From positions 1 through 26,450 of the IMG/VR virus record IMGVR_UViG_3300022208_000024: DNA of 26,450 nt. One strand, 5' to 3'. The translations under genes and the position numbers were made by a program. The DNA comes from a virus. Numbering within the stretch: the first letter of the stretch is position 1; each line of letters opens with the position of its first letter. Below the pieces are notes generated by a model. It searched no databases and was not told the origin of the DNA. It saw nothing but the letters and a program-made list of their open reading frames with translations. Below, one piece after another: positions 3,060-26,289 of this stretch.

Positions 3060-3902
3060 TTATTCTTCTTTGTTGTTCCAAGTTACTGGCTTAAATCCTA
3101 AGTCTGGTATTACGATATCATCGTAAGGCGCAAGATGCGAAATATTTGTGATTTTTGCTTTTAGCTTTGGGCAATCGACGTGTTGTCCTTGGTGACGATC
3201 AACGCAATTAAGGCAGACAGGATAAAAATCGGCATTCAATGACTTATCTGGATTATTCATCCATCCGTTCTTGCCTTTGACATATCGTGTTGGGTCTGGT
3301 TTTACGTTGTTTGTCTCTAGGTACTCGTAAACATCCTCGTCAGTCCAATCTTTTAAAAGATAAAGTGACACGGGATTTCCATCGACGTGACGAATATCTT
3401 GCGCCAGTGGCACATGACCCTTAATCAAATCTGTGTCGGTATATTTAGTTCCAATCCATACTGCATTCCACGGGAAATTAAAATTTCCAGTTGGACGCAT
3501 TAAAAAATCATCAACTCCACACATATATGGTTCATTTTCTTTAGGACGTTCTGTTCCCAAAGAAAGAATAATACTATTTTGACCCCATTGAAAATAATGA
3601 AGTAGATCAAAGCGAACTTCACCTGTTTCAACATCTGGCCCATCTGCAAGAGTATGTTTAAATGCTGGATACTCATATACAGATAATTGCCAATCTTTAA
3701 TTAACTTGTCTGAATATGCATATCTTTCGCGAAATTTGGGTTGTCTAAACTGAACAACTGGAATATCAATTCCACATTTAAATTTTAAAAAGTGTAAAAG
3801 GACAGTTGAATCCTTTCCGCCAGACCAAAAAATGACCGAATTGGGCCATTGCTTGTTCCAATTAACTGCTTTATGGATTGTTTTATGTATTAGGTTTTTC
3901 AT
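3060..3902 (-). CDS. PAPS-reductase-like PP-loop (adenine nucleotide alpha hydrolase) protein
   Basis: The PP-loop motif is clear: residues 26-33 read WSGGKDST, the nucleotide-binding signature of the PAPS reductase / ATP sulfurylase small subunit / DndC-like superfamily. Further family-like features are FRERYAYSDKLIKDW (58-71), which follows the second beta strand, and DWTDEDVYEYL (185-195), which matches the 'W.. edV..Y' helix of PAPS reductases. The C-terminal region holds C230-x2-C233 and C244 in place of the ECGLH-type catalytic motif of true CysH, so an assimilatory PAPS reductase role is not supported. Phage members of this family are usually annotated simply as phosphoadenosine phosphosulfate reductase family. 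Chemistry here could be sulfur transfer or adenylation. The ATG overlaps the preceding stop by one base (TAATG), implying coupled translation with the MGGK virion gene. Confidence 0.85.
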   Translation of the reverse strand: MKNLIHKTIHKAVNWNKQWPNSVIFWSGGKDSTVLLHFLKFKCGIDIPVVQFRQPKFRERYAYSDKLIKDWQLSVYEYPAFKHTLADGPDVETGEVRFDLLHYFQWGQNSIILSLGTERPKENEPYMCGVDDFLMRPTGNFNFPWNAVWIGTKYTDTDLIKGHVPLAQDIRHVDGNPVSLYLLKDWTDEDVYEYLETNNVKPDPTRYVKGKNGWMNNPDKSLNADFYPVCLNCVDRHQGQHVDCPKLKAKITNISHLAPYDDIVIPDLGFKPVTWNNKEE

Positions 3903-5366: not shown

Positions 5367-7505
5367 TTAACAAGGATTCTGCGCTTTAAATTGTTGTGCA
5401 GCGGAGGTTGCCGATTGCATTGCAAGCACTCCTGCCTCCTCTTGAGCGTGTTCAAAACTGATGTAAGACAAAAATGTTGCTGATGCAGTGGCCGAAATTG
5501 ATTTCGTTGGATCAGCATCACAGATTAGCGTGACTGTCTTCCAAACTTTTGCACTGTAGGAGTTATCATTTGCGGATTGTTGTTCGTATGGGTTTGGAAG
5601 CAAATCAATCGACAATGTTTCACCAGTCTGTGCAACAACGCACGATTTTGTTTCATCGCCCTGCGGCACACCAGTTGATTTTTCTTGCCAAGGATCCATG
5701 AAGAGTCTAACAATCTCAACTCCGAATTCACCGCACCACTCGATTAGTAGCGAGAATGCCTTATCGACATCGTCTGTCAGATATGACTCGCAGGTAGAAA
5801 CAAGTGAATTGCGTTGCGCTGATTCAGTCGTGAGTCTTCTATATTGGGAGTTCAAAAACCCTAGATTCTTAATCTCGGATTCATATGGGGTATTTTCCCA
5901 CTGGTAGTCAGAAGTGACTGCCAGAATGCGCTTCTCTAGGATTGGGTTGTATGACCCCTTGCTGCCCCTGTAAGACACTTTTAAGTCAACTGTTCCACCA
6001 ATCTGCGTGGATTCGATTTCAGCGTAGATAAACTTCTTTAAATCCATCTCATCACCAAGCAATGGAGTTTCAAACTGCGAGTAAATGCGATTGTAAAGTG
6101 TTGTTGTGGTTTTGTCTGGATTGATCTGAAGGTAAGAATCAACTCGTTCTGGCTGGAATGATTCCCAGAGATGGTTGAATGAACCATCATTTGTTGCTGC
6201 GTAATCCACAGAAAAATGGAAACACCTAGATTGCCCGTCAATAACACCTGTAGTCCATTCTACTGGACGTGTGCCTGTCCAAACTCCAGACCATGCAGGA
6301 AATCTATTTTCCCCACCACTCCATTCTGAAGCGGTGGCATAATCCATAACCATTGTATCTGAATTAAGGGTCTGCAAGTAAGGGATTGAATAGAGCAAAT
6401 AATTTTCAAATCCAGTAGCACAAATCTTTGTTGGGTCAGCGGCCATCAGTCTCTTTGCTCTTGCCATCTCAACGTCTTTATAAAGCACTTGCGAAGATAA
6501 ATACGATGTTGCTGCAATGTCACCTGTCATCAGTCCACCCTGAGCATACCACCACATTTGACCCGCTTGAAAAGCAATTGATTTTCCTGCAACGCAACCA
6601 ACAGTTGGGTAAAGAGTCGATTGGAAGTTTTCGGTAGTGACCCATTGATCTCGATCAAGGATTCCCGATTTAAGCTGGAAAGTAGAACGATCCGTAAAGA
6701 CAATCAATCGGGTGGACGTATCTTGACCGACATAACTTGTCATGCCAGTGATAGGACGCGAAAAACTAAAGTCACCACGGGAAGTGCCTGTTGTACGTTC
6801 TTGGAATGAGGTTGGATCACCTAAGTCAGATGCAATCACAATATTCTTGTCAGCAATCCACATTCTGTTGCCAGAGTATGCCATCCAATATCCTACTGGA
6901 ATTGTAGAGAGTTGAAAGCCTGCCTTATCAGAACCATCCCAGTACGAAGGGTATGAAATGCCATCTTGGATCATAACAATTCGATGTGCTGGGGTAGCGA
7001 ATTCTTGAGATCCAGTAGATAGATTGGCTGAACGTGTGGCAAGTTCAAATACGAATTGATCAACGTCTGGTGACATCGCAATGTTTTTAAGCCGAAAATC
7101 TTCCCAGTTGCTTGGCTGAACTAGAGGGAATGGAGAGAAATAGACTTTTCCGTTTACCGCAAAAACCATGTAGGACAACTCGCTTGCAATTACGCCATTT
7201 CCATCCACGTCGAATATTTTAGCTGGAGTTGTTGTAATAACCCCATCTCGATCTTGCGTGAGTGCGGCTTCCTTTTGTTTGTTAGAGGAAAACAAGATGC
7301 CACCTTGGAAATTGCCAGCGGGAAGGGAAAGCTGCATTTTATGCCCGGGTCTTGTTTGCACGATGCCACCACGGAAAGTTACATTGACCCCCCACTTGCA
7401 TTGGTTCTCAGGCAATAACCAAGGATTCCTAACAGAATTAACTCCCTGAATCCATCCTGATGATACCTTTTTAAGTCTGCCTGATGTAATGTTTTCACTT
7501 TTCAT
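5367..7505 (-). CDS. Tail nozzle / stabilisation protein, P22 gp10 / T7 gp12 type
   Basis: This 712-residue protein has the N-terminal block NPWLLPENQCKWGVNVTFRG followed by GIVQTRPGHK (about residues 27-56). That is the hallmark start of the podovirus tail-stabilisation or nozzle family ('N..lR.G....RPG'). The middle is beta-rich with repeated short strand pairs (YPSYWDG, WMAYSGNRMWIADKN, TRLIVFTDRSTFQLKSG), consistent with the beta-propeller of P22 gp10 and T7 gp12. The C-terminal ~250 residues are probably an additional domain and end in Ala/Gln-rich helix. In relatives it forms a hexameric tube at the bottom of the short tail that closes the DNA channel. It directly follows the adaptor gene (two bases), the classic order. 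Confidence 0.8.
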   Translation of the reverse strand: MKSENITSGRLKKVSSGWIQGVNSVRNPWLLPENQCKWGVNVTFRGGIVQTRPGHKMQLSLPAGNFQGGILFSSNKQKEAALTQDRDGVITTTPAKIFDVDGNGVIASELSYMVFAVNGKVYFSPFPLVQPSNWEDFRLKNIAMSPDVDQFVFELATRSANLSTGSQEFATPAHRIVMIQDGISYPSYWDGSDKAGFQLSTIPVGYWMAYSGNRMWIADKNIVIASDLGDPTSFQERTTGTSRGDFSFSRPITGMTSYVGQDTSTRLIVFTDRSTFQLKSGILDRDQWVTTENFQSTLYPTVGCVAGKSIAFQAGQMWWYAQGGLMTGDIAATSYLSSQVLYKDVEMARAKRLMAADPTKICATGFENYLLYSIPYLQTLNSDTMVMDYATASEWSGGENRFPAWSGVWTGTRPVEWTTGVIDGQSRCFHFSVDYAATNDGSFNHLWESFQPERVDSYLQINPDKTTTTLYNRIYSQFETPLLGDEMDLKKFIYAEIESTQIGGTVDLKVSYRGSKGSYNPILEKRILAVTSDYQWENTPYESEIKNLGFLNSQYRRLTTESAQRNSLVSTCESYLTDDVDKAFSLLIEWCGEFGVEIVRLFMDPWQEKSTGVPQGDETKSCVVAQTGETLSIDLLPNPYEQQSANDNSYSAKVWKTVTLICDADPTKSISATASATFLSYISFEHAQEEAGVLAMQSATSAAQQFKAQNPC

Positions 7506-7507
7506 TG

Positions 7508-10500
7508 CTAGAACATAACTGGATCAGTACCATCACCATACGTCAAATTATTAATTTGTGGTGGAACAAAAGCGTGGCCATCTTGGTGTTCTTGCTGATT
7601 CTTCAGATATGCCAAAGAAAACCCCCAATAGCGTAGTGCTTGTTCAGCAAAATCCTTGTCCTCAAGGTCGCAAGCATGAACGGCAGTAATGATTGCGCGG
7701 GTATGCTCAATTGGAATGAAGTCGTATCTGCTAGTTATTACTGGAGGTTTAATCCTATAGGCAATTCTTGCCCACGCGCATGGTTTTCCAATGCGAATCC
7801 TGCGGTATTGCGGATTTACTTCGGTGGGATGGTATTGTCCAATCAGAGTCAAATCATTGCTGCGTCCGTAGTCCATTGCATACAAGCTAACAAATCCATC
7901 TGTAAGAGGTTTTTGAATGTTAGCAACACTTTTCACTAAGATTGGATCTTGAATTGCATCGACGAAGAATTTGCTATCCGTGGATAACCCGCTAGTCAAA
8001 AATGAAATCCTTCCAGTTGCGCTAGTTAAGTTTTGAGATTGTAACTTGGTTGTATACAATTCAAATTCATCATTGTCGATTCGACGAACAAAGTATGTCG
8101 TTCCTGCCACAAGCCCAGATGGAAGCACATCACCTGAATCGGCTCGTACAGTCACAGACTGCCCTGTCGTGTAAAGCGAAGCGTCAGCAATGATGCTAGT
8201 GGATGGGGATGCCGTAAATGTGCGTTGAATATCTAGCGACAATTGACCAGTTCCGGGTGTTGTAATCGGAACCAGAATACCTCCAGAATACACATTAACA
8301 CTATCTCCAATGATCTTAACTTGGTAGTCCGTTCCAACAACCAATGGAGTTGGCAAAACTCCGCTTGTTGAAAACTTCACGCTTTCATTTTCCGACAAGA
8401 ATTGAACGGAAGAAGGTTGAATTAGATTGTTGTATGGAAGCGGGGAAACAGAGAATCTTTTCGCGTAGTACGATTGACCAGTCCCAAATGACACCACGCT
8501 AATCAAGCCAGTTGTTCCACCAGCAATAGCATTTGCAGATGACGTGTATGCCCTAGCAACTGATGTAGATGATACATTTAGGTATGCTGGAGTCGCTCCA
8601 TTATCAATTGCTGGGCTTGTTGTTGGTAACAAATAATCCGTTCCCCAGTAAATGGTTTCTGGAGTTGTTAGATTAGTAAAATCACCTAACCAGTTATTGG
8701 TAAACGCAACTCCAAAAACGCGAGATAGTACAACATAGAATGTTCCAGTTGGAGCAGATGTGATATTAATTTTAGAAAAGTCAGCATTTTTAACTGTAAA
8801 CACTCCAGTAGATGAATTTAATGGAGTTTCTGCGCGATATGATGTTCCAGACAATAATGGAGATGGAAGCGTTCCAGTAGACGAAAACTGAACAAACACT
8901 CCAGTGGATGGAGTTATAGAAACTGTTGGTGGACTCGTATATCCAGTTCCACTTGTTATTACATTAAGAGAAGTGACAATTCCACCTGCAATGTTTGCTG
9001 TTGCAGTTGCTCCAGATCCACCACCTCCAGTTATTTCAACCTGCGGAGCATTTACATATCCAGAACCTCCAGAGATTTGAGTGAATCCAACAACAAATGA
9101 TGTTTGAATTGTAGCGTTTGCAACTGCTTGAGTTCCAGTTTTAAGTTTAACATTTAATGTTCCAGTTGCAGGAGAAGAAAACGCTTCTTTGGTTCCAGTT
9201 GCAGGTGTTGTTAGTGAAGACGAAACAGTATAAGTAAATGTTGTTCCAGATGCGGTTAATAGCGTTTTATTTCCATTGTATCCATCTGGATCAGCTCCAC
9301 TAATTGCAATAACCTGACCAGCAGCAAAGCCATGTGCAGCAGATGTTGTTCCTGTTGCAGTTGTGGATACTCGCGTTAGGTTTGTTATTGAAACTGTTTG
9401 TCCAATTTCAGTAATTAGCTGATATGTAAATGATGTGGAACTTAATACTGTGACCACGAAATCGCCATTGTAAGCGGATTGATCTGCTCCAGATATTGTG
9501 ACTGTATCACCAGTTCTATAGCTATGATTGCCAGATGTATTAACAGTAACTGTAATACCATTTGTAACCATTGATGTAATGTTAATTAATGGAGATACAG
9601 GAGGAGAAGAAATTGTTACAGAAGGTGCGGTTGTGTATCCGAAGCCGGGGTCTTCAATTACAATCGAGGACAACTGGTATGTGATAGAATTGCGAATAGC
9701 ATATCCAGTCGCAGTTCTAACGGAGATTGTGCTTCCAGATGGTGGTGCTGGAGGAGCAGAAAATGTCACTGTAGGGTCGGCGGTGTATCCAGAACCTTGA
9801 TCAGACAAGTTAACTGAAGTAACACTTCCAACCACGATGGGAGTGAAGTTTGCTCCAGCTCCAGATGGGGACGCAATGGAAAGACCCGGTGCGGTAATCT
9901 GGCTGGATTCTCCTGCCACAGCAGATGCTGGGATTAACTTAATAAGTGAAATTGTACCAACTCCAGCGGAAGTGATCTGAATTGGGTTTACGAAATTCGT
10001 AGGAGAAGATGCAAGTGCATCCGCTTGTGTCGTGTGAATCGAAACTGCTTTTGTGTCTACAATATTGACAAAGTAGTTTTGATTGGCAATTAGAGGTTGA
10101 GGAAGCGTTCCTCCAGATGTAAATACTTGAACTTGGTCGCCTTGTGTTAGCAGGTGATCTATGCTAAATGTTAACTTTGTCTCTGGAACTATTTCCTTTC
10201 GGATATCGACATTGATTGGGTTTGTTGATCCAGTAGTGTGTACCTCGTTAACATTTGCTTGTGCGTCAGAGATCGAGCTAAAAATCTGAAGGTGCGTTGC
10301 ATCGAGAAGATTTCCAAAGTAGGTAACTCCAGATTTAATCCCAATAGGTAAAGTTTGCCCAGATGGAAAAGTAATTGGATTTGCAGTCGTAATTTCGATA
10401 GTAGGAGCAGACGCGAATTGAAGAGCGGTAACGACAAGTGAAGTCCTTGAATCAAGAAATTTCAATGGCCCTGCTCCCACTATACTTTGGAGGGAAAGTG

Positions 10501-11248
10501 GATAATTACCTGCCTGTGCATTGAGAGAATCGTTGTAGATTTGGATCGTTAAAGCATCGAGAACACCAATGTAATACGTTTGACCATTGGAAAGCGGAAC
10601 TGGGATAGTGCCAGAAATCGCAGTAATAGTCATTCCTTGCCCAGAATTGAGCGTGTGAGGGGTTGTGGACGCAAACTTGCTAATCGGGCTTATAACAACC
10701 TCACGGGTGCGAATAGTAGCATCATCAGGAGCAATCGTTCCGTATGCAAAGTCAGATTGAGAATGGATTGGAATAAGCAACCCATCGACACCAGTGCCAT
10801 CTTTGAGTTGGCTACGAATATCTCGGTTGTTGGAATCTGTTCCAGTTACGCGAATGATCTTGCCTACGTCATTTTCGCTTTCGGCAATCGCTACCAACTG
10901 CGAGGGTTGGATAATCTGCATCAATGTGGCTACATAGCCTCGGTCATCCCATGCCCATTCTACAGTGTTGAACTTACCACCTTTGTTGACATGGTATTGG
11001 AATAGACGATTGCGGAAGTAAACTGGGGAACCATCTACATTAACCGCAAGGGGAACATCTATTCCACGGGGAAGAGCTATTGTGCAACCATCCCATCCTG
11101 TGCAAACATCAACATCAGCAGTGGATTGCATCCAATGCCCAGACTCCATAAGCGTCTGGACAGCTTGCGTGATTTTGCGGTAAACTCTTTTTTCGTCAGT
11201 AGTTCCTAAAATCTCCGCACATTCCTCAAAGATTTGATCGACAAACAT
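7508..11248 (-). CDS. Head-to-tail adaptor-like protein with ~900-residue repeat insertion (1246 aa)
   Basis: Residues 1-187 (MFVDQIFEECAEILG...) and 1104-1246 (SVANIQKPLTDG...YHPTEVNPQYRRIRI...AYRIKPP...ITAVHACDLEDKDFAE) read as two halves of one conserved podovirus protein that sits beside the nozzle gene, comparable to adaptor / tail tubular protein A (P22 gp4, T7 gp11 role). Between them lie about 900 residues of beta-rich repeats of three types. (A) Six copies of 'LPxPLxxGxxYxV' near residues 213, 297, 379, 791, 962 and 1039. (B) Four copies of 'GxGYxxxPxV' near 485, 535, 728 and 767. (C) Two 'ISGAD..YNG' modules at 574-610 and 639-675. Types A and C resemble FCCH-like or Ig-like phage decoration repeats. 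The insertion probably projects from the tail neck. Adaptor identity is inferred from the ends and the neighbouring nozzle gene. Confidence 0.7.
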   Translation of the reverse strand: MFVDQIFEECAEILGTTDEKRVYRKITQAVQTLMESGHWMQSTADVDVCTGWDGCTIALPRGIDVPLAVNVDGSPVYFRNRLFQYHVNKGGKFNTVEWAWDDRGYVATLMQIIQPSQLVAIAESENDVGKIIRVTGTDSNNRDIRSQLKDGTGVDGLLIPIHSQSDFAYGTIAPDDATIRTREVVISPISKFASTTPHTLNSGQGMTITAISGTIPVPLSNGQTYYIGVLDALTIQIYNDSLNAQAGNYPLSLQSIVGAGPLKFLDSRTSLVVTALQFASAPTIEITTANPITFPSGQTLPIGIKSGVTYFGNLLDATHLQIFSSISDAQANVNEVHTTGSTNPINVDIRKEIVPETKLTFSIDHLLTQGDQVQVFTSGGTLPQPLIANQNYFVNIVDTKAVSIHTTQADALASSPTNFVNPIQITSAGVGTISLIKLIPASAVAGESSQITAPGLSIASPSGAGANFTPIVVGSVTSVNLSDQGSGYTADPTVTFSAPPAPPSGSTISVRTATGYAIRNSITYQLSSIVIEDPGFGYTTAPSVTISSPPVSPLINITSMVTNGITVTVNTSGNHSYRTGDTVTISGADQSAYNGDFVVTVLSSTSFTYQLITEIGQTVSITNLTRVSTTATGTTSAAHGFAAGQVIAISGADPDGYNGNKTLLTASGTTFTYTVSSSLTTPATGTKEAFSSPATGTLNVKLKTGTQAVANATIQTSFVVGFTQISGGSGYVNAPQVEITGGGGSGATATANIAGGIVTSLNVITSGTGYTSPPTVSITPSTGVFVQFSSTGTLPSPLLSGTSYRAETPLNSSTGVFTVKNADFSKINITSAPTGTFYVVLSRVFGVAFTNNWLGDFTNLTTPETIYWGTDYLLPTTSPAIDNGATPAYLNVSSTSVARAYTSSANAIAGGTTGLISVVSFGTGQSYYAKRFSVSPLPYNNLIQPSSVQFLSENESVKFSTSGVLPTPLVVGTDYQVKIIGDSVNVYSGGILVPITTPGTGQLSLDIQRTFTASPSTSIIADASLYTTGQSVTVRADSGDVLPSGLVAGTTYFVRRIDNDEFELYTTKLQSQNLTSATGRISFLTSGLSTDSKFFVDAIQDPILVKSVANIQKPLTDGFVSLYAMDYGRSNDLTLIGQYHPTEVNPQYRRIRIGKPCAWARIAYRIKPPVITSRYDFIPIEHTRAIITAVHACDLEDKDFAEQALRYWGFSLAYLKNQQEHQDGHAFVPPQINNLTYGDGTDPVMF
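7940..10681 (-). repeat. Degenerate protein-repeat region inside the adaptor-like gene
   Basis: This stretch encodes residues 190-1103, built from three interleaved, diverged beta-repeat types (six, four and two copies). Examples are SGTIPVPLSNGQTYYIG, SGVLPTPLVVGTDYQV and SGTLP-like copies; GSGYTADPTVTF and GTGYTSPPTVSI; ISGADQSAYNG and ISGADPDGYNG. Copies are recognisable in protein but not as exact DNA repeats, so duplication is old or the units were acquired separately. Confidence 0.65.
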
Positions 11249-14378: not shown

Positions 14379-16208
14379 TTATCTAAATATTGTATAATAT
14401 ATTTGCCTTGGGGAACCTGTTCTGTTGTTTATGTATACTAAACCATTATATGCAGCTATATTTATTTTAAGATCAACGCCATCCGTTCCCGATAGTGCAG
14501 AAGATGATGTTGATATTAAATTCATCATTCCACCAACATAGCCAGCATCGGTTATGGTATTGCTTGTTGTGTTAAATGCAATCTGCGCCATTCTTAAATT
14601 TGCTCCACCACCGTCTGTAACGATCATAAAACCTCCAACCTTGGGAGGCTTAAATGAAAACACATCTCCATTGTCAAGAAAATCGTTTTTTCCAGAATAT
14701 GCTGAATTTAATTTCACTCCATCAGTTGAATCAATATACAATGAATTGTATGCTGATGGTATATTTGCGGTTAAAGAACCGCTTGAATCTGGCATACGAA
14801 GAACTAATCCAAGTGATCCATCTGATGGCGTTGTTGCTGTTTCGTCAGAAGATATAATTTCAATAAATCCAGATGTTTGTCCAGATATATTTATATCTTG
14901 CAAAGAGTTTTGTTGCCGCCCTCGTCCTGTTGTTGTTCGCATTATGCGATTACATCCACCAGCTAAAAAACATTGTTCTTTTAAGCGTGTTCCAGTAAAA
15001 TTAACATTGTATGCATTTTTTATATAGGTAAAATTAACATTGCATCCAGTAAAAAATAAATCATTTACATCTCCAGAAACGTCTCCGTTAATATAAATGT
15101 CCCACAATGGCCTAATCAATGTTCCTGTTTCATTTGCAACAAACGGCTTATTTATATCAACTGTAGTGTTCGTAACATTTGAAACTGTTACGCCAAGTCC
15201 ATCGTAAGATGTAGTGCCTTGGATTCTTATATTTTGCATTCCTTCAGTTAAAGAGTGCGCTCCTATAGTTAATGTTGTTTTAACGCCTGGATTAGTAACT
15301 GAATTGGCTGCTGATGTTATAGTGAATGAATCTCTATTTGCATAGAGTCTTTGGTTGTTTGACAAGGAACATTGATCAAAATAACTTTCCAGCGATTTTC
15401 TTGATGCTGTTCCATTAATGTAAAGGCCCACGTTGTAGTTTTCACTAATCGTGCAATTGCTCATTTTTACTTCTTGCCCTTGTGTGACTAGTGCGCCATG
15501 ATTGACGTTATCTTTAAAGTGACAGTTACTAAATTGAGATCCCAAGCTGTATTCTACAAGTAATCCGTTTTGCTTATTGAAATCGCTATAACAATTCACA
15601 AAGCTCTGGTGAGCTGTGTAATATGTTTGTGACAGTGCATCGCCAAGAACAATACCGTTTTGTTTGTTCATGATATATAAATTATAAAAAGAACCACCTC
15701 GCACGTTTTGCGATGTGCTTTTCATAACAAAACCATCTTGAGTGGTAATATCTCCATCAAGAGTCAAATCAAAAACTTGGCAATCATTTTTGTCAATCAA
15801 TATTTGAATGTTATATAAAACAGAAGCATTTCCATCCCCAAAAATAACGCTGCCAGAAGAGGTTGGAGTGATCGTCAATCCTGTTGTTACATATTTTCCA
15901 GAAGGAAAATACAATGCTTTCTTAATAGGAAGCCCATTCCAATGTGATATAGCAGCTTGAATCGCGGCAGTATCGTCCGTAACCCCATCACCAACTGCTC
16001 CGAAGTCTTTCGCATTCACCACATCCGCAAAGCGATCTTGCAGATTGCGGGGTGCAGTGGTTCCTGTTGCCGTCACGCTAGAGCTATTCAGCCCTACAAA
16101 GCTATTTGCCGTGACTACGCCAGCGTTGTTCACTGTCATCTGGTCAACGCCTCCTACGCCGATGATTGCCTGTGTTCCGTCTGTGGATGCTTTAATGTTT
16201 GCGCTCAT
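14379..16208 (-). CDS. Tail spike 3, pectate-lyase-fold beta-helix (609 aa)
   Basis: The N-terminus MSANIKASTDGTQAIIGVGG, with VDQMTVNNAGVVTANSF, is a typical phage fibre attachment segment. The hinge TAPRNLQDRFADVVNAKDFG then AVGDGVTDDTAAIQAAI (51-87) opens a pectate-lyase-3 beta-helix running to about 290. An Ig-like module (about 312-370, IQGTTSYDG) follows, then more helix rungs. A beta-rich C-terminal domain ends in VYINNRTGSPRQIYYTIF. It should act as a receptor-binding or depolymerising tail spike, probably trimeric; active-site residues are not identifiable by eye. The first codons and upstream bases (16186-16213) are repeated exactly at 18186-18213. No Shine-Dalgarno precedes the ATG. 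Confidence 0.82.
   Translation of the reverse strand: MSANIKASTDGTQAIIGVGGVDQMTVNNAGVVTANSFVGLNSSSVTATGTTAPRNLQDRFADVVNAKDFGAVGDGVTDDTAAIQAAISHWNGLPIKKALYFPSGKYVTTGLTITPTSSGSVIFGDGNASVLYNIQILIDKNDCQVFDLTLDGDITTQDGFVMKSTSQNVRGGSFYNLYIMNKQNGIVLGDALSQTYYTAHQSFVNCYSDFNKQNGLLVEYSLGSQFSNCHFKDNVNHGALVTQGQEVKMSNCTISENYNVGLYINGTASRKSLESYFDQCSLSNNQRLYANRDSFTITSAANSVTNPGVKTTLTIGAHSLTEGMQNIRIQGTTSYDGLGVTVSNVTNTTVDINKPFVANETGTLIRPLWDIYINGDVSGDVNDLFFTGCNVNFTYIKNAYNVNFTGTRLKEQCFLAGGCNRIMRTTTGRGRQQNSLQDINISGQTSGFIEIISSDETATTPSDGSLGLVLRMPDSSGSLTANIPSAYNSLYIDSTDGVKLNSAYSGKNDFLDNGDVFSFKPPKVGGFMIVTDGGGANLRMAQIAFNTTSNTITDAGYVGGMMNLISTSSSALSGTDGVDLKINIAAYNGLVYINNRTGSPRQIYYTIFR
16033..16067. repeat. 35-base exact repeat, spike hinge (copy 1)
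   Basis: It is identical to 19686-19720. It encodes the TGTTAPRNLQDR part of the hinge in spikes 3 and 1. Such identity inside otherwise diverged genes marks a recombination hot spot or recent gene conversion. Confidence 0.8.
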
Positions 16209-18208: not shown

Positions 18209-18213
18209 AGTTT
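18186..18213. repeat. 28-base exact repeat upstream of spike 2 (copy 2)
   Basis: It is identical to 16186-16213. Here it lies between the end of spike 1 and the start of spike 2, not at the start of a full gene. Confidence 0.85.
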
Positions 18214-19858
18214 AAGATGCTGATCGTGTTTTAATTGTGGATATGACAATTTGTTGAGATGAAGCATATCCATTAGAAATTTGATATTTCACAGAACCTC
18301 CGTTATATGCTAATCCAATTTCATTTGCTCCAGCAGCACCAGATACCATTGAAGCTGCGCCTGAGACTTTTGTAACTGTTCCCCCATAACATAAAAACAT
18401 AGCGAGATCACCAGTTGTGTTGTTGTGCAACAAAACAAGTCCAGACCCTACTCCAAGTTGATATGTGCCAGCGGCAGCAATCGTAAAACCACTGCGTTTT
18501 GAGAAGTCAATTCCCCAATCTGTAGATGGAACTGTAAATGGAGTAATTGAACCACCAACTCCAGAATTAAAGTGAAATACATTTGTTTCTGGGCTTGCGC
18601 TGGAATCAGTAATTCCAGTCACATTTGATCGCAAGTCGTTGTTGGAAACAATTACATTTGATGTTGTGCCTCCAAGGAAAATTGCAAGAACATTACCAGA
18701 ATACAATCCGTGCGATCCAATAATGTTTCCAGTTATTACCGCGCCTGATGTGTTACTTAAAGAGATCGCAGTAGTGTGTCCACCAATTTTGTTTCCGTTT
18801 AAAATCAAGTTTGATGCTCCAGACGATGTAATTCCTTCTCCCGTTCCAACAAAAAGACTGTTTGAAACTTGCAGCGAAGAGATTGTGCCGCCTCCAGCGG
18901 TGGAGGCTAAAACATCGCTTGTTGTGCCTTTGATCCACGGAGAATTAATTGTGACCTCGTTTACTTGACCTCCTGTTGCTGGAGCAAGTCTAATGCTTGC
19001 TGTAGCGGCATCATCAAACTGTGAGTCGTTGCACCAAAGCAAACCAATGGCTTGTCCCGATCCGGGAATCACATTCATGTTTATGCCTCCGCTAATACAT
19101 TGGCACTTGCTGAAAACAATGTCTTCAACATTTTCAATTTGAATATGACTTTCTGGCCTTGATGCAGGATCATTTCTGAATATGCAGTCAACAAAACTTA
19201 TTCCAAATCCTCCAGTAACAACAATGCTTTTGCCAGTACTTGCAACTGCGCCATTAATGTCAATAGATTCAAACTTTGCAATAGCGATATTTGGAATTAA
19301 GATTCCAATATATGGTGACACAATATCAACTTGATACACATCAATTTTTGATGCGTTTGTTGTGATTGAAATACTTGATCCAGCAGTTCTTGTTGTTGCG
19401 TGTTCGATACGAAGATTTGAGATTCCAACATTTCCAGCATCAAGAACGATTACATTTGCAGTTGCAGATGTAGTGCGAATTATTGTTTTTGATCTGTTTT
19501 CCCCAGTAAGAATAATTCCAGCAATTGAAACATTCATTGCAGAAGATGTTTTGTAAATTCCACATGGAAACAAAACAGTTCCTCCGATTGAAAGACTATT
19601 TATCGCAGCTTGAATCGCAGCAGTGTCATCCGCAACCCCATCACCAACCGCTCCGAAATCCTTTACATTCACCACATCAGCGAAACGATCTTGCAGATTG
19701 CGGGGTGCAGTGGTTCCTGTGGCAAGAATAGGAGCAATTTTTGATTCTGTTACTGACCCGTCTTGTAGATTTACAGAATCTATAATGAAATTGCCAGAAA
19801 TGTCCCCTCCAGTTACATTTCCAAATAGTCCAGATGTTCCGTCAAGAATTAGTGACAT
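18212..19858 (-). CDS. Tail spike 1, pectate-lyase-fold beta-helix (548 aa)
   Basis: The N-terminus MSLILDGTSGLFGNVTGGDI is followed by a 'SVNLQDGSVTESKIAPI' linker. The hinge TAPRNLQDRFADVVNVKDFG then AVGDGVADDTAAIQAAI (50-86) is the canonical pectate-lyase-3 entry. A long beta-helix follows with rungs such as NLILNGNKIGGHTTAISLSN and AVITGNIIGSHG. The ~100-residue C-terminal domain (GTYQLGVGSGLVLLHNNTTG, GGSVKYQISNGY) ends the protein. Unlike spikes 2-4 it shows no Ig-like insertion. A 35-base stretch of the hinge is identical in DNA to spike 3. It starts four bases after the collagen-like fibre stop, so it is co-transcribed. The role is receptor binding; enzymatic activity is undetermined. 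Confidence 0.82.
   Translation of the reverse strand: MSLILDGTSGLFGNVTGGDISGNFIIDSVNLQDGSVTESKIAPILATGTTAPRNLQDRFADVVNVKDFGAVGDGVADDTAAIQAAINSLSIGGTVLFPCGIYKTSSAMNVSIAGIILTGENRSKTIIRTTSATANVIVLDAGNVGISNLRIEHATTRTAGSSISITTNASKIDVYQVDIVSPYIGILIPNIAIAKFESIDINGAVASTGKSIVVTGGFGISFVDCIFRNDPASRPESHIQIENVEDIVFSKCQCISGGINMNVIPGSGQAIGLLWCNDSQFDDAATASIRLAPATGGQVNEVTINSPWIKGTTSDVLASTAGGGTISSLQVSNSLFVGTGEGITSSGASNLILNGNKIGGHTTAISLSNTSGAVITGNIIGSHGLYSGNVLAIFLGGTTSNVIVSNNDLRSNVTGITDSSASPETNVFHFNSGVGGSITPFTVPSTDWGIDFSKRSGFTIAAAGTYQLGVGSGLVLLHNNTTGDLAMFLCYGGTVTKVSGAASMVSGAAGANEIGLAYNGGSVKYQISNGYASSQQIVISTIKTRSAS
19686..19720. repeat. 35-base exact repeat, spike hinge (copy 2)
   Basis: It is identical to 16033-16067 in spike 3. 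It encodes the Thr-Gly-Thr-Thr-Ala-Pro-Arg-Asn-Leu-Gln-Asp-Arg hinge lead. Confidence 0.8.
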
Positions 19859-19862
19859 AATA

Positions 19863-21953
<2,091 letters not shown>

Positions 21954-24100: not shown

Positions 24101-26289
<2,189 letters not shown>

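Follow-up and report, generated by a model that had tools for sequence, protein, structure and literature searches.

The gene at positions 7508..11248 (minus strand) of the window, the whole stretch of 26,450 nucleotides analysed here, codes for a 1246-residue protein in which two nearly constant ends enclose a middle built of whole beta domains of about 80 residues, which close relatives gain and lose as units. Based on its genomic position and on the predicted topology of its ends, this protein is probably a phage head-to-tail adaptor. On balance we favour, a little less firmly, its interpretation as an adaptor in which the fibre-dock region has expanded into a modular, outward arm.

The Phage Group and Its Genomes

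The window, a virus record of 26.45 kb, represents a fragment from a phage group of approximately 62 kb seen only in metagenomes. Its close relatives measure 60–66 kb, including L171/G001 (62,098 bp) and L221/G002 (62,443 bp), and the records of the relatives were read as indicating a freshwater habitat. Searches by tblastn with the ends, the nozzle-like protein or the terminase gave no close match in isolated phages, and plasmids and GTDB genomes likewise yielded no relative. In G001 the genes are ordered as follows: terminase large subunit (matching phrog_2, E 9e-12), putative portal and capsid (assigned from position alone), a long fibre block, the putative adaptor gene, a gene of the 712-aa type described below, and a gene for a 2131-aa virion-like protein. 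Several small G001 proteins have no assignment, among them the product of a 113-aa gene that follows the putative capsid gene.

The 2131-aa protein of G001 (L281:4424-10816), encoded downstream of the nozzle gene, gave weak matches to ART-PolyVal (E 0.07) and to ParB-like proteins (E 0.0025), and is possibly an internal ejection protein. On the minus strand of the window there are also two genes for spike-like proteins (14379-16208 and 18212-19858), whose N-ends match several of the same tail-spike PHROGs; the first contains pectate-lyase-like and beta-helix domains, and these sequence matches suggest that the two are alternative depolymerases. Two further products (19863-21953 and 24849-26285, minus strand) match collagen-like tail fibre families. 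A PAPS reductase-family protein (3060-3902, minus strand; Pfam PAPS_reduct 27.5 bits, above the cutoff) is encoded amid the structural genes, and a gene of similar size occupies the corresponding place in G001 (41069-41902).

Organization of the Gene and Its Repeats

The gene starts with ATG and was delimited from the list of open reading frames and from 128 distinct complete relatives; all features described below lie on the minus strand. Alignments define a constant N-end (residues 1–186; 10691..11248) with predicted helices and beta strands, and a constant C-end (residues 1100–1246 plus the stop codon; 7508..7951) in which predicted beta strands lead to two predicted helices. Between them lies the variable insertion (residues 187–1099; 7952..10690). 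The borders proposed in the first-pass annotation, about residues 187 and 1104, are near those seen in the 128 relatives (186 and about 1100).

From its N-terminal side, the insertion begins with three modules of the LPxPL form with approximate borders: an FCCH-type module (residues 188–262; 10463..10687), a second one recognized by motif and spacing (residues 263–346; 10211..10462) and another FCCH-type module (residues 347–437; 9938..10210). These are followed by two GxGY beta repeats (residues 462–555; 9584..9865) and by two ISGAD/FCCH modules, both variable cassettes (residues 556–622, 9383..9583, and residues 620–687, 9188..9391), the former being identified by HMM and by a match to Pfam E1_FCCH (21.8 bits, under the cutoff of 29.5 that is exceeded in relatives). 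Two more GxGY beta repeats (residues 720–780; 8909..9091) precede two LPxPL modules with approximate borders (residues 785–850, 8699..8896, and residues 946–1010, 8219..8413) and a final LPxPL/FCCH module (residues 1021–1098; 7955..8188). In searches of the window and of G001, the module profile matched the putative adaptor alone.

Six LPxPLxxGxxY-type motifs occur at residues 215 (as IPVPL), 300, 382, 794, 965 and 1042, four GxGYxxxPxV motifs at residues 485, 535, 728 and 767, and two ISGAD..YNG motifs at residues 585 and 649. The counts and places reported earlier were the same on recount and far above those of shuffled sequences: in 2000 residue shuffles the LPxPL, GxGY and ISGAD motifs had means of 0.011, 0 and 0 and maxima of 1, 0 and 0, respectively. 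A chance origin of the repeats was ruled out, as the motifs are virtually missing from these shuffles.

Fold of the Modules

A structure was predicted for L164, a full-length natural relative, using a 46-sequence alignment. The insert of the model is all-beta, with pLDDT values mostly of 80–92, while the ends have mostly low pLDDT and the pTM of the whole model is 0.47. A search with VIA-align gave as top match the FCCH domain of Uba1 (Z 7.6, rmsd 2.6 over 75 residues; the tool advises Z 8), followed by phage endosialidase domains (Z 4.7–5.5). A Foldseek search of the same model against the PDB gave no match with E below 0.001. No adaptor was present in the VIA-align list, which is a weak probe for one given the low confidence of the model ends. 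Since L164 lacks ISGAD modules, the Uba1 match belongs to the LPxPL type. The ISGAD type, in turn, matches Pfam E1_FCCH (PF16190) with 48.7 bits in L200 and 34 in L221. As the LPxPL type matches the Uba1 FCCH structure and the ISGAD type the Pfam family, in two separate tests, both kinds of module appear to have the same fold, that of the E1 FCCH beta-barrel. An FCCH-type fold of the modules is well supported, and GxGY is a short beta repeat of about 40 aa. The three repeat types distinguished in the first-pass annotation were thus recovered as motif forms, but they probably correspond to two folds, LPxPL and ISGAD both being FCCH-type.

The Uba1 and endosialidase alignments reach from about residue 178 to about residue 937 of the L164 model, the strands with which the insert begins and ends. 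We read this feature of the model as a single domain in which the two ends of the insert come together, as would be expected of an insertion into a loop. The modelled modules resemble the E1 FCCH domain and the barrels of the K1F and phi92 endosialidases in being small beta-barrels, although Z scores below 8 are modest and a fold common to the endosialidase barrel and the window modules does not imply glycan binding. Since the beta-barrel of the K1F endosialidase binds polysialic acid and is a hotspot of host discrimination (PMC12632334), glycan binding by the insert is possible by analogy.

Constant Ends and Exchangeable Modules

The 128 distinct complete relatives were collected by repeated scans of viral contigs. 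The 186-aa N-end and the C-end of about 146 aa occur together in 128/128, and no complete open reading frame among them has one end alone, which bears out the proposal that both ends belong to one protein interrupted by an insertion. Across these relatives the insert ranges from 750 to 1589 aa and the whole protein from 1084 to 1921 aa. For the 91 members most closely related to the window, the distinct insert lengths are quantized near 83 aa (R 0.82, versus at most 0.46 in 1000 random sets). Even when the ends are at least 95% identical, the insert differs by more than 60 aa in 184 of 319 pairs. For example, L046 and L053 have ends 99.7% identical and middles two modules apart; the differences, of 79 and 84 aa, lie at separate places, and each is one clean cassette flanked on both sides by collinear DNA 91–97% identical. 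With L164, at 1084 aa the shortest member, as the reference, additional modules are found at four main sites (L164 residues ~295, 545, 595 and 750), and divergent members have a few further insertion sites. Scans of viral contigs with the ends or with the nozzle-like protein found no short, insert-free member and none with an insert below 750 aa. It is thus well established that whole beta domains of about 80 residues come and go as units in the middle of this protein.

Evidence on a Probable Adaptor Function

The next gene (5367..7505, minus strand), whose ATG lies 2 bases past the stop codon of the putative adaptor, codes for a 712-aa nozzle/stabilisation-like protein. Its profile matches the HMO-2011 gp44 family by hhalign with a score of 52.6 (prob 81, E 1.2e-5); after thinning, the profile scores 51.3, and 0/60 column shuffles of the thinned version exceeded 26.2. 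T7, P22 and SU10 nozzle-type proteins, used as single sequences, gave no match, and the predicted model of the family has a pLDDT of 39.5. The nozzle assignment, as a remote homologue, comes from this one profile match. In HMO-2011, ctYwJ313, RHph_N3_19, MQM1 and vB_Pun_Y3, a gp44-family gene directly follows a gp45-family gene (212–244 aa), and the gp45 family matches T7 gp11 (prob 85, E 5.8e-6). The place directly before the nozzle gene is that of the adaptor in T7, P22, HMO-2011 and related phages, and the putative adaptor gene directly precedes the nozzle/stabilisation homologue, as an adaptor gene would.

The sequence of the ends was less informative. Profiles of the joined ends against T7 gp11, P22 gp4 and HMO-2011 gp45 gave E values of 0.08–0.6, within the range of column shuffles. 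These tests are low-powered, since the known adaptor families partly miss each other: the control pairs gave E 0.0017 for gp11 with gp4 and E 0.15 for the HMO-2011 gp45 family with P22 gp4. No sequence relation of the ends to adaptors or to PHROG, Pfam, NCBIfam or PDB entries was detectable. On the other hand, described adaptors all share a four-helix bundle despite having no sequence homology (PMC6702177), and the order predicted in L164, with low confidence at the ends, is helix 7–14, helix 19–35, strands, insert, strands, helix 1019–1030 and helix 1037–1058. The adaptor role put forward in the first-pass annotation is therefore partly supported: it agrees with the gene position and, at the low confidence of the model ends, with the predicted topology, but was not reinforced by profile comparison. 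A separate adaptor gene, which would speak against this role, was not seen in the 62-kb G001 with three profiles (gp4-, gp11- and gp45-like), a search of low sensitivity.

Conserved cysteines are present in the ends of many members (VCTGWD, KPCAWAR), and the G001 genes downstream of those for the virion include one for an Erv1/Alr-like protein (L281:11340-11939; E 7e-6, just under the Pfam cutoff). Taken together, these sequence features hint at disulfides in the putative adaptor; the T7 adaptor contains one disulfide (PMC6702177).

Comparison With Known Adaptors

In T7, a beta fibre dock is added to the helix bundle of the adaptor (PMC6702177). The fibre dock of the T7, KP32 and SU10 adaptors is an accessory domain that is lacking in P22 and Sf6, and the adaptor complex of SU10 supplies the attachment sites of the long fibres (PMC9509320). 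The first-pass annotation regarded adaptors as buried at the neck, which does not agree with the exposed fibre-dock domain of the T7 and SU10 proteins (PMC6702177, PMC9509320). The window protein resembles T7 gp11, KP32 and SU10 gp11 in its predicted helix-helix-beta-helix-helix order, with the insert predicted where their fibre dock sits, and its gene precedes a putative nozzle gene as in T7; however, those adaptors have about 200–250 aa and a small fibre dock, whereas the window family has 1084–1921 aa and no significant sequence similarity to them. With HMO-2011 gp45/gp44 it shares the two-gene order and a downstream partner that is a remote homologue, but the HMO-2011 adaptor has 238 aa without a large insert, and the window-family ends are not significantly similar to it. 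The P22 gp4 and Sf6 adaptors occupy the same slot before the next tail protein, although they have only about 150–170 aa and neither fibre dock nor insert.

PHROG profiles and a predicted-structure search located the same beta modules in cyanophage structural proteins, in the 1200-aa neck protein gp14 of metaG-MbCM1 and in PHROG 460 ("head closure Hc2"). These belong to different host protein families and match locally, with TM-scores of about 0.1; gp14 and PHROG 460 nevertheless set a precedent for neck proteins with modules.

Proposed Model and Alternatives

We propose that the gene product would be a phage head-to-tail adaptor whose N- and C-ends jointly form the ring-building four-helix bundle, with two helices from each end. 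The beta region between helices 2 and 3 would occupy the fibre-dock position of T7 and SU10 and be interrupted by a large array in which small beta-barrels of FCCH type are combined with GxGY repeats. The ring would lie between portal and nozzle, and each of its subunits may carry this array as an outward-pointing arm, giving 12 arms if the ring resembles that of T7. The ends stay nearly constant, while whole cassettes of about 80 residues come and go at a small number of preferred sites, as expected if an exposed arm experiences selection that shifts quickly with host surface polymers or with the fibres held. We infer the ring assembly, the outward projection and the binding role of the putative adaptor; the arm might act as a whisker, a glycan binder or a fibre anchor. 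More tentatively, the neck ring could bear a recombining cassette adhesin, in which interchangeable FCCH barrels at a few fixed fibre-dock sites retune surface binding and leave the ring interfaces untouched.

Whether the arm itself contacts the host bears on an alternative that we consider somewhat doubtful, namely that the protein is an adaptor whose insert has only a structural part, as a scaffold or docking arm on which the neighbouring spikes and fibres sit, with no host contact of its own. The gene adjoins the block of spike and collagen-like fibre genes, and the long-fibre attachment sites given by the SU10 adaptor complex (PMC9509320) also fit this interpretation; the fast turnover of whole modules on near-identical backbones is more typical of host-facing surfaces, a weak argument because fibres too turn over fast. 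An unlikely alternative is that the protein is a neck or collar adhesin or whisker and that a small unrecognised adaptor is encoded elsewhere. The ends without detectable relation to any adaptor and the several unassigned small G001 proteins, such as that of the 113-aa gene, would agree with it, whereas the adaptor place directly before the nozzle homologue and the predicted end topology oppose it, as does the lack of an adaptor profile match elsewhere in G001, although these profiles have little power to detect known adaptors from other families.

The number of modules might also be nearly neutral, the insert being an exposed repetitive loop in which recombination is easy and affects function little. 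Tandem beta repeats are prone to recombination, and the length of the insert varies even between near-identical ends. We consider this improbable, since changes occur in whole modules placed at preferred sites, no complete member has lost the ends, and insert-free members or inserts below 750 aa were not found.

If the protein is an adaptor with a modular arm, as we favour, its several hundred residues of exchangeable modules would make part of a core assembly ring fast-evolving and possibly host-facing, in a phage group that is widespread yet uncultured. The natural series of lengths on near-identical backbones makes the role of the modules directly testable.
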